Assembly (NCBI GenBank): GCA_019044685.2
Contig: JAGTXX020000013.1
Coordinates: 186,001-250,000, forward strand
DNA length: 64,000 bases
From: Nannochloris sp. 'desiccata'
Lineage: Eukaryota > Chlorophyta > Trebouxiophyceae > Chlorellales > Chlorellaceae
Reading direction: 5' to 3'
How positions within the stretch are numbered: position 1 is the first letter of the stretch; each line of letters opens with the position of its first letter. The notes under the pieces are model-generated. The model was given only the letters and a program-made list of their open reading frames with translations. It had not been told where the DNA came from and made no database searches. Below, one piece after another: positions 32,077 through 39,344 of the stretch. The position numbers and the translations under genes are program-made.

Positions 32077-32746
32077 GCAGGATTTATGCTTTCTTTTTCT
32101 TTCTTTTCTATTTTTGTTTCCATTATTAGGTTCGAAGGCTATTTCTTTATTATCATTTGTTATTGGATGGATACTCTTTTTTCCTTCTCCTTCTTTGTTG
32201 GAAGGGGCATTCTGCGTTGGGTAGGTGGTTGTGACGACTCTTTATTCTGCCCGTCATTTAAACTTTCACATTATAGATGTTAGATGGCCATGCTATATTA
32301 GTCATCCGATGTACTTGTAAGGAATGATACTTGTCAACAATTTCTATGCACAACAGACATTTGAAATTTGCGTGAATATGAAAAGTCTATCGAGATGGTC
32401 TCTGGTCTATGCAAAGCTAATTGATTCATTACCAAAAGGCCGTAGATCTAAGAAGTGGCGCATTAAGTTACTACAGTTTGCGATTTGGGCAAAGTAAAAC
32501 TGGCGATGAGCGCGATGCGATCGACTCAAGCCTTCCCAGTTCAATTCTTAGTCGACCAATGCCGCAGTATATCAATATTAAATGGAAGAAGGCAGTTTAG
32601 ACGGCAAATTAAAGCTGTAAACCAAAGAAATTTGTGAAATGGAAAAATTTTAAATTTTTGGGGGTTAAGTAAGGCTGGAAAACACATCAGTTATAAGTCA
32701 ATCGAGCCCCCTGAGTCAATCAGGATGCTACATAGCTAATTTAATT
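32077..32746. other. Intergenic, TPS 3' region and tRNA 5' flank
   Basis: Carries the TPS 3' UTR (TGTAA at 32316) and the upstream flank of the permuted tRNA gene. TTATAAGTCAA at 32691-32701 resembles the TATA-like plus CAA start signals seen upstream of many plant tRNA genes. A short hairpin, CCTGA-GTCAA-TCAGG, sits at about 32710-32724. No protein gene is seen. Confidence 0.45.
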
Positions 32747-32824
32747 TAGTCTAGCCCCGAGTTCGATTCTCGGATAACGCAGCCTAAGCGTTATTGGTGT
32801 AGTGGTAACATTGGACTTTGCCAT
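32747..32824 (+). tRNA. Permuted tRNA-Gly(GCC) gene: 3' half precedes 5' half
   Basis: The two halves of a tRNA lie in reverse order. The 3' half, 32747/8-32781, reads: anticodon-stem strand AGTCT (32748-32752), variable AGCC, T-stem CCGAG, loop TTCGATT, CTCGG, acceptor ATAACGC, discriminator A. A 6-base spacer, GCCTAA (32782-32787), follows. The 5' half, 32788-32823/4, reads: acceptor GCGTTAT, TG, D-stem GTGT, loop AGTGGTA, ACAT, T, anticodon stem GGACT, loop TTGCCA(T). Joined at position 37/38, the acceptor pairs 7/7 (GCGTTAT/ATAACGC), the anticodon stem 5/5 with one G-U, the T stem 5/5 and the D stem 4/4 with one G-U. The result is a 71-nt tRNA with anticodon GCC at 32820-32822. A conventional reading fails because no 3' acceptor strand follows the 5' half. 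A T5 terminator follows at 32841. Confidence 0.92.
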
Positions 32825-32840
32825 CCAAAGTGAAGTTATC

Positions 32841-32845
32841 TTTTT
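32841..32845 (+). terminator. Pol III terminator of the permuted tRNA
   Basis: Five T residues 17 bases after the end of the tRNA 5' half, where a Pol III transcript carrying the 3' half, spacer, 5' half and a short trailer should stop. Confidence 0.65.
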
Positions 32846-37932: not shown

Positions 37933-39344
37933 ATGGTGGATGCCGAGAAATTTTCCGCAGCCATTTTCCGGCGAGGTCAGAAACAGGAATTGTTTGGTGA
38001 TGGTGATGATAATCAAGGAGACCTAGAGCTTGAATTAAAGCTTGATGAACTATTAGATGTATGGAGTTTACCACGGGCAGGGTAAGAATTTAGCGAACCC
38101 ATAATGTCGCTTTTAAACCTTTGTTTCATCTTGAGATTAATAAAAAAAAAAAATGGCAGCAGCCAGGACCTAGCAGTCACTGACCTCACATCGAAACCTC
38201 AATCTTCGTTCATCGTCACTGACCTTTACACATGCATTTTTATAAGCTGAACCCTCTGATCTCTAAATATTTTCCTTTGGTTCTCTTCTCCAGGAAAGAC
38301 TTGGCGGCGGCTATTTGGCGACCTCAACACAACACAGCAGAAGTGGTCCTTCAACGAGGCAGACTCTTCAACCACATCGGCTTTATGTGGGGCAAAAAAC
38401 TATTCCTCCACCCAGAAGAAGCGTTGTATTTAGTTGATAGAGCCAATCTGCTTTTATTCGAGGATACCTCTGCCTCTGGTAAACACTTATACTCTCTTCA
38501 AGAATGCCAAGAACTCATGGTAGCTAATGGCGTCTCTATGGATATGTATCTAGTCTACTGCAAGCTTATGAGAGCGGGTTATATAGTGCAAAGACACCCT
38601 TTTACCTGGGTTGTTAAAAATTCTGAGTCACCGACTCAAATTTGGAGTTTTCCACCCAGTTCATATAATAGCAAAAGCAATAGACTCGCACAACCCGCTA
38701 TTCCTAATTCTGCTTCATCAGTAGTAAAAGTAAAAGAGAGAAAATTGACGGAAGGGGAAGGAGTGGAGGAAGAGGAGCGGGCAGCTAAGCGACAACGAAA
38801 AGGAGAGACATCGATTGCTACCGCCACAGAAAAAAGAACTAGTCACAAAGAAAGCAGAAAGAGTCCTTGGTGGGGATCAACTGGCAGCAACACTACTGCT
38901 GATGCCACAACAACAACTACGATTGCTACTACTACTACTACATCTAAAAACCCTTGGGCAGGCTTAATAGATCAAACAACCCTCCCCCGCTGCACCGTCC
39001 GTGAACCAGCTGTTCACCGAGCACTTGCACTGTTCCCAAATATGCAACCACTCCACCATTTACAGCCTTCTGAAGTTGTAGATCTCGGTATTGTGAATAA
39101 AGATGGGGTTGGGATGCTTCATTTTGATGTGTTCGCTGCAAATAGTCAATTTAGTAGGAAAGCACCTGGCGTACCTCTCTATTCAATATCTGTGTGTGAG
39201 GGCGGGGCACCCCCCTCCTTATTAGGCAATAATGCAGCAGATCAAGCTTCAAATGGGATTCCTGTGCGGTATTCAGGTGTGGAACATGGGGATATCAGCT
39301 ACTTTGCTATTGCAAGAGCAGAATTACATAAAATTATTACTTGA
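37933..39344 (+). CDS. SEN54: tRNA-splicing endonuclease subunit SEN54
   Basis: A structural subunit of the heterotetrameric SEN complex that cuts introns from pre-tRNA. It has 399 residues and two exons: 37933-38081 (GG|GTAAGA) and 38294-39344 (CTCCAG), stop TGA. The Sen54 N-terminal domain is clear: DLAAAIWRPQHNTAEVVLQRG, FNHIGFMWGKKLFLHPEEAL, LVDRANLLLFED, and VYCKLMRAGYIVQRHPFTWV, corresponding to the family's W-x-P, G-LYPEEALYL-E and KLGYVVRRH-type motifs. A basic and Thr-rich disordered middle follows, then a C-terminal domain ending SYFAIARAEL. The intron has a long A run. The gene lies about 5 kb from the permuted tRNA, whose maturation needs this endonuclease. Confidence 0.88.

Follow-up and report, generated by a model that had tools for sequence, protein, structure and literature searches.

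A circularly permuted tRNA-Gly(GCC) gene in the green alga Nannochloris sp. 'desiccata' and its genomic setting

A 2014 review counts 34 permuted tRNA genes in all, distributed over six algae and one archaeon (PMC3978253). As summarized there from Soma 2007, the red alga Cyanidioschyzon merolae resembles Nannochloris in encoding the 3' half of the tRNA before the 5' half, with a T-stretch downstream, and a circular intermediate has been demonstrated in it by RT-PCR (PMC3978253). Its permuted genes make up 11 of 43 tRNA genes, against 19 of the 29 found in Nannochloris, and fall into four junction types, six of the 11 being type II (37/38); two encode tRNA-Gly(CCC), with 7-nt spacers and a T-loop intron (PMC3978253), whereas the Nannochloris gene presented here is Gly(GCC) and has no intron. 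Ostreococcus, Micromonas and the chlorarachniophyte nucleomorphs belong, like Nannochloris, to the green lineage, and their permuted genes are nearly all type II with hBH at 37/38 and spacers of 5-64 nt, but number two to six per genome and serve mostly Ser, Leu, Cys and iMet, no Gly being among those listed (Maruyama 2010, as given in PMC3978253 and PMC4494063). In Auxenochlorella UTEX 250, a different genus of the same class as Nannochloris, the Trebouxiophyceae, the tRNAscan-SE set is described as incomplete until permuted genes were added (PMC12633428, PMC12636532).

Here we analyze a 64-kb stretch of the Nannochloris sp. 'desiccata' genome (the window), in which an initial annotation had pointed to a permuted tRNA-Gly(GCC) gene. 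We propose that this is a functional, single-locus, circularly permuted nuclear tRNA gene processed via a circular intermediate, a reading to which the sequence features discussed below lead us to assign a probability of roughly 0.93. The annotation had set it against Cyanidioschyzon and some prasinophytes, where the kind is indeed known, but the host is a trebouxiophyte, and since Auxenochlorella has already been reported with permuted tRNA genes (PMC12636532) it is not the first case in that class. Our literature search recognized no report on permuted tRNAs in Nannochloris.

The permuted tRNA-Gly(GCC) locus

At window positions 32747-32823 the two halves of a tRNA-Gly(GCC) are encoded in reversed order, nt 38-73 preceding a spacer and then nt 1-37 (Table 1). 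Rejoined, they give a cloverleaf with fully paired stems (acceptor 7/7, T 5/5, D 4/4 and anticodon 5/5, the last two with one G-U each), U33, the anticodon GCC and A73, with CCA not encoded. The reversed halves and the six-base spacer GCCTAA are thus present where they had been placed, as judged by sequence, ARAGORN and the covariance model R1, and the intact stems, U33, anticodon, discriminator base and T5 run are all seen as well, the D stem with its one G-U; only the end differs, having been set at 32824 because T38 can be read from either 32747 or 32824. The spacer length had been called notable, an emphasis that does not hold against the 1-74 nt given in the published table of permuted genes (PMC3978253) or the 5-73 nt of the 19 permuted genes that we find in Nannochloris.

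Table 1. Features of the tRNA-Gly(GCC) locus and a neighboring reading frame, in window coordinates
Feature	Position	Strand	Basis
Predicted leader (nominal 5' end), which would act as the 3' part of the split intron	32735..32746	+	sequence; 32:-3 pairing over 19 genes
Leader A, A and T that can pair with T32, T33 and G34, respectively; -6 mismatched	32744 (-3), 32743 (-4), 32742 (-5)		
tRNA-Gly(GCC) 3' half, nt 38-73; B box 32761-32769	32747..32781	+	sequence, ARAGORN, R1, parser
Spacer GCCTAA between nt 73 and nt 1; loop closing the acceptor stem	32782..32787	+	sequence, parser
tRNA-Gly(GCC) 5' half, nt 1-37; A box from 32795, anticodon GCC 32820-32822	32788..32823	+	sequence, ARAGORN, R1, parser
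Trailer, which would act as the 5' part of the split intron	32824..32840	+	sequence
T5 run, candidate RNA polymerase III terminator	32841..32845	+	sequence; T-runs in 19/19 permuted genes
Reading frame with SEN54 N-terminal domain (tRNA-splicing endonuclease subunit)	38232..39341	+	PF12928 E 1.2e-12; Sen54 PDB chains, best E 1.7e-14

In the raw 64-kb window ARAGORN reports 0 tRNAs and Rfam none at gathering scores, and an ordinary or intron-containing gene at this place is ruled out by that ARAGORN result and by the 3' half preceding the 5' half. The tRNA search on the rejoined halves that the annotation had proposed was run with ARAGORN and gives tRNA-Gly(GCC). R1, a model of the permuted 37/38 tRNA built from 38 synthetic tRNAs, none of them from the Nannochloris genome and all modeled on the general eukaryotic consensus, returns a single match up to E 10 over the window, the Gly(GCC) locus itself (45.5 bits, E 1.2e-13). 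A rule-based parser, separate from R1, scores the locus at 43; in a random control of 11,614 windows drawn from an order-1 Markov model of the 64-kb window (743 Mb in all), a single candidate among the 12,295 that were scored got as far as 34, with a top score of 36. That the arrangement arose by chance or as an assembly artefact is highly improbable given these control scores, a second copy on another contig with gene and spacer identical, and the presence of 18 more permuted genes in this genome. The structure, the random control, the 18 other genes and a common splicing-endonuclease signal sustain the initial assignment, and the locus is supported as a tRNA-Gly(GCC) gene with a circular permutation of type II (37/38).

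The searched genome comprises 21.55 Mb in 18 contigs, with a G+C content of 43-46% in 14 of the 16 4-kb stretches of the window; for N. desiccata UTEX 2526, 21.6 Mb and 45.0% G+C are reported (PMC12633428). A whole-genome DNA search with the rejoined Gly tRNA matches two places, both permuted and with identical halves and spacer, one in the window (contig C13) and the other on contig C6, where the surrounding DNA shares 99.5% identity with the window across 1,706 nt. A gene for trehalose-phosphate synthase/phosphatase (TPS), whose frame in the window matches a Nannochloris sp. 'desiccata' protein at 100% identity over 69% of the query, lies near the Gly copy on both contigs, on C6 beyond an insertion of ~9.5 kb, and marker pairs on C13 and C6 are spaced 77.6 and 77.1 kb on one side and 110 and 118 kb on the other. 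Two independent gene copies were considered and rejected, as the shared TPS gene, the identity and the marker spacing make the two regions look allelic; the two copies most probably represent alleles of a single locus, and a large segmental duplication may be the alternative.

The same search, which had been called for to look for an ordinary tRNA-Gly(GCC), found no contiguous gene at the level of close matches that it needs, a plant-tRNA DNA query having matched nothing in the genome, and a diverged contiguous tRNA-Gly(GCC) may exist elsewhere. The D-arm pattern TRGTNTAGTGGTNA occurs at eight genome sites, the two Gly copies and six others, and among the four of those six that were examined none is a tRNA by ARAGORN or R1. 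The earlier suggestion that this gene is the only route to its Gly isoacceptor is consistent with permuted copies alone being found and falls short of proof. The gene might, conversely, be a dead remnant, an untranscribed permuted copy left by tandem duplication and loss of the outer halves while GGC and GGU are read by another tRNA-Gly(GCC); we regard this as unlikely, as all stems are intact, no T4 run lies within the gene, and the close-match search of the whole genome yields no further copy.

Leader signal and predicted processing

Should leader and trailer serve as the ends of one split intron, the anticodon loop would be expected to pair with the leader across a 3-nt bulge. Eukaryotic splicing endonuclease calls for such an anticodon-intron pair (PMC3978253, section 8). 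The pair joins nt 32 to intron base -3. Over the 19 permuted genes, the 32:-3 combination is Watson-Crick in 15 (ten C-G, five U-A; binomial P about 5e-7, or 6.5e-6 when corrected for testing twelve positions), against 0-7 of 19 for nt 32 with each of the other eleven leader positions, and when leaders were swapped between genes 5,000 times the count never rose to 15 (mean 7.9, maximum 14). The Watson-Crick pair is missing in four of the 19, one of which has a G-U. Neighboring pairs extend the signal less sharply, 33:-4, 34:-5 and 35:-6 occurring in 10, 10 and 9 of 19 genes with off-diagonal cells at 0-9, and the 4-pair helix of nt 32-35 with -3 to -6 averages 2.58 pairs, a value reached by 3 of 2,000 swaps. 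A leader signal kept across genes in this manner again argues against dead remnants. In the Gly(GCC) gene itself the pairs are U32-A, U33-A and G34-U with C35 unpaired, giving three of four pairs in the H helix, and the junction motif predicted from these bases is a relaxed hBH form, that is, a bulge-helix(-bulge). The annotation had instead suggested a possible helix between leader TAATTT and trailer AAGTTA, which can form in a constrained fold and is not the feature common to the genes; as a recognition motif it was rejected, the cross-gene test favoring pairing of the leader with the anticodon loop.

A T4 run begins at most 18 nt after the 5' half in 19/19 permuted genes, and none occurs in the 1,844 nt that make up their halves and spacers; 9 of the 19 leaders (60 nt each, 26 for one) contain T4. 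These runs bear on whether the Gly tRNA could be a split tRNA, made from two separate half-genes joined in trans instead of one permuted transcript: the kind is reported from archaea (PMC3218864), and each half does form a hairpin-bearing unit, but no spacer among the 19 contains T4, and spacers of as little as 5 nt are too short to hold both a terminator and a promoter, which makes separate half-genes a very remote prospect. One continuous permuted transcript is the reading that we retain.

Some results count against this reading. In plain RNA folding of the 19 precursors, the tRNA-like form is less stable than the minimum-energy fold by 0.2-6.7 kcal/mol (6.1 for Gly(GCC)), and the bulge-helix motif is not seen in the free fold of the Gly(GCC) precursor, which folds only slightly better than its shuffles (z -1.85; equalled by 9 of 200). 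Upstream of the permuted genes no common promoter was recognized beyond A/T-runs, which are also the main enriched words, the others tracing to mobile-element ends; GAACCA, a B-box-like upstream word, was rejected as lying mostly within repeat ends. TFIIIC B-block family matches are present in the genome and say little, because the control also matches in bacteria. How polymerase III starts on genes with A and B boxes reversed becomes testable in a genome with so many of them.

The gene layout, the cloverleaf, the leader signal over 19 genes, the T-runs, and the endonuclease and RtcB-type ligase domains in the genome (two PF01974 endonuclease matches and two RtcB loci) form the observed basis for the following pathway. 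RNA polymerase III would make one short RNA consisting of leader, 3' half, spacer, 5' half and trailer, whose halves would fold into a cloverleaf broken at 37/38, while the leader would pair with the anticodon loop through 32:-3 and its neighbors and leave a 3-nt bulge (38, -1, -2). The tRNA-splicing endonuclease would then remove leader and trailer like the two ends of one intron, and a ligase, presumably of the RtcB type, would join nt 37 to nt 38 and close the circle, from which RNase P and tRNase Z would excise the 6-nt spacer before CCA is added to the nt 73 end. This order of cleavage is the one that we infer, and the resulting tRNA would be expected to function in translation. A SEN54-like gene lies 5.4 kb downstream of the Gly(GCC) gene, which would need that very enzyme (Table 1); their proximity is probably a coincidence.

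Permuted and ordinary tRNA genes across the genome

Loci elsewhere in the genome were drawn with four B-box words, probes that are blind to gene order for the 37/38 permutation and that confine the census to B boxes of these forms. Genome-wide, GGTTCRAWYCC occurs at 87 sites (51 for the reversed-pattern control), AGTTCRAWYCT at 61 (94), TGTTCRAWYCA at 90 (67) and CGTTCRAWYCG at 26 (95), so that GGTTCRAWYCC alone, plus TGTTCRAWYCA weakly, exceeds its control in number. The sites examined were 87/87, 52/61, 12/90 and 20/26, respectively, a few more of the 90 falling within other loci already covered, and the TGTTCRAWYCA windows were cut for the permuted direction, which is unfair to ordinary genes. 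GGTTCRAWYCC, the fully examined word, gives 14 permuted versus 7 ordinary genes. The partial census as a whole holds 19 permuted and 10 ordinary tRNA genes, about two-thirds permuted, counts that are lower bounds from a search that sees the 37/38 junction type alone; their uniform type is for that reason no finding.

The permuted genes are Gly GCC, Asn GTT, Arg CCG, TCG, TCT and CCT, Met CAT, Phe GAA, Cys GCA, Glu CTC, Ile TAT, Ala TGC and AGC, Leu AAG, CAA and TAA, Ser GCT, and Thr TGT and AGT, and 19/19 are called by ARAGORN, once rejoined, as tRNAs with the expected anticodon. In the 129 loci supplied to it as they stand, with introns allowed, ARAGORN called 0 permuted genes, a result that shows ordinary tRNA annotation to be blind to them. 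R1 matches lie at 28-63 bits and are followed by a gap down to 15.9 bits, an ordinary intron-bearing Pro gene; permuted Arg CCG (L081), with a 73-nt spacer, scored 12.0 bits and came to light through the parser alone. In the Cys gene (L150) the 3' half can start at either of two places; we counted the version whose stem is complete, with a variable region of 12 nt and without the -3 pair, the alternative having the -3 pair and one stem mismatch. Left out as doubtful was a Leu-like permuted locus (L107, G000:C11:1726664-1727275; R1 35.5 bits), whose D and anticodon arms fit poorly and which may be a pseudogene or have an extra intron. Upstream of permuted tRNA-Thr(TGT), at a distance of ~36 nt, lies a diverged partial copy of the 3' half (L128; 15 nt, 93%), which may be left over from the duplication behind the permuted gene, and a 12-nt D-arm match follows the permuted Glu gene (L104).

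Among the ordinary genes, six carry a 37/38 intron (His, Asp, Pro TGG, Pro AGG, Ser CGA, Ser TGA), and the other four are Val TAC, Gln CTG, an initiator-like Met and a Ser GCT that looks plastid-derived. The last is present on both C6 (L004) and C13 (L005), possibly as nuclear plastid DNA, with the permuted Ser(GCT) being separate (L088). Pro AGG (L136) rests on the parser alone, and Val TAC on an RF00005 genome search alone, whose nine matches are no census, 63 of 825 candidates having been scored; L019, Pro(CGG) to ARAGORN and Ser(CGA) to the parser, was counted as Ser, and L032, a doubtful ordinary call (ARAGORN Ile, 122-nt intron), was left out.

In this partial census, most isoacceptors on the permuted list are without an ordinary gene, and so many could hardly all be dead, which weighs further against a remnant at the Gly(GCC) locus; a remnant gains some room from the sites outside the census (9/61 AGTTCRAWYCT, 6/26 CGTTCRAWYCG and 78/90 TGTTCRAWYCA) and from its restriction to four words. 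While the kind of gene is already known from a red alga, prasinophytes and Auxenochlorella, the proportion of permuted genes in Nannochloris appears unusual. One green alga with at least 19 of them, most lacking an ordinary copy in the partial census, would move permuted genes from a curiosity to a main route of tRNA supply, in which most sampled adaptors would need cutting and rejoining at the RNA level before working, and it opens to test whether nearly all of that supply can depend on tRNA-splicing endonuclease and circular intermediates.

Retroelement ends upstream of tRNA genes

The C6 insertion is a non-LTR retrotransposon of ~9.5 kb with RVT_1 and Exo_endo_phos domains (reverse transcriptase and endonuclease), which ends 121-128 bp upstream of the Gly gene (L015, L010), the window allele on C13 being without it. 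A second copy sharing this end lies 45 bp ahead of permuted tRNA-Ala(AGC) (L073), and the two copies are oriented alike with respect to their tRNA genes. Overall, 10 of the 19 permuted genes have a retroelement end 45-155 bp upstream, in one case on a single haplotype. Dictyostelium retroelements that target tRNA genes offer a comparison.

We consider it likely, with appreciably less assurance than for the Gly(GCC) gene itself, that the nuclear tRNA set is mostly permuted (at least 19 genes versus 9 ordinary nuclear ones found, six of the 9 with an intron, so that 25 of 28 would need the endonuclease) and that the retroelement ends are placed as if aimed at polymerase III complexes, which would accordingly form on permuted genes. 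If so, permutation would give tRNA genes no shelter from mobile elements, a point that can be tested in this alga, and most permuted genes would be live transcription units.

Two repeat families account for further ends. The first ends at -81 to -104 before permuted Arg CCG, Arg TCT, Phe and Cys and is also found 762 nt before ordinary His (L030, L081, L022, L150, L006), and the second ends at about -75 to -154 before permuted Ile, Leu AAG, Ser GCT and Arg CCT and ordinary Asp (L035, L096, L088, L109, L098). Repeat matches at E 1e-4 or better, in 181 records totaling 340 kb with some overlap, all fall in tRNA loci, a comparison that is no genome-wide survey because the loci were drawn by B-box words; when 44 non-tRNA loci were compared pairwise, two pairs shared any segment. 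Upstream of permuted Phe, 449 nt are 65% like the non-LTR retrotransposon.
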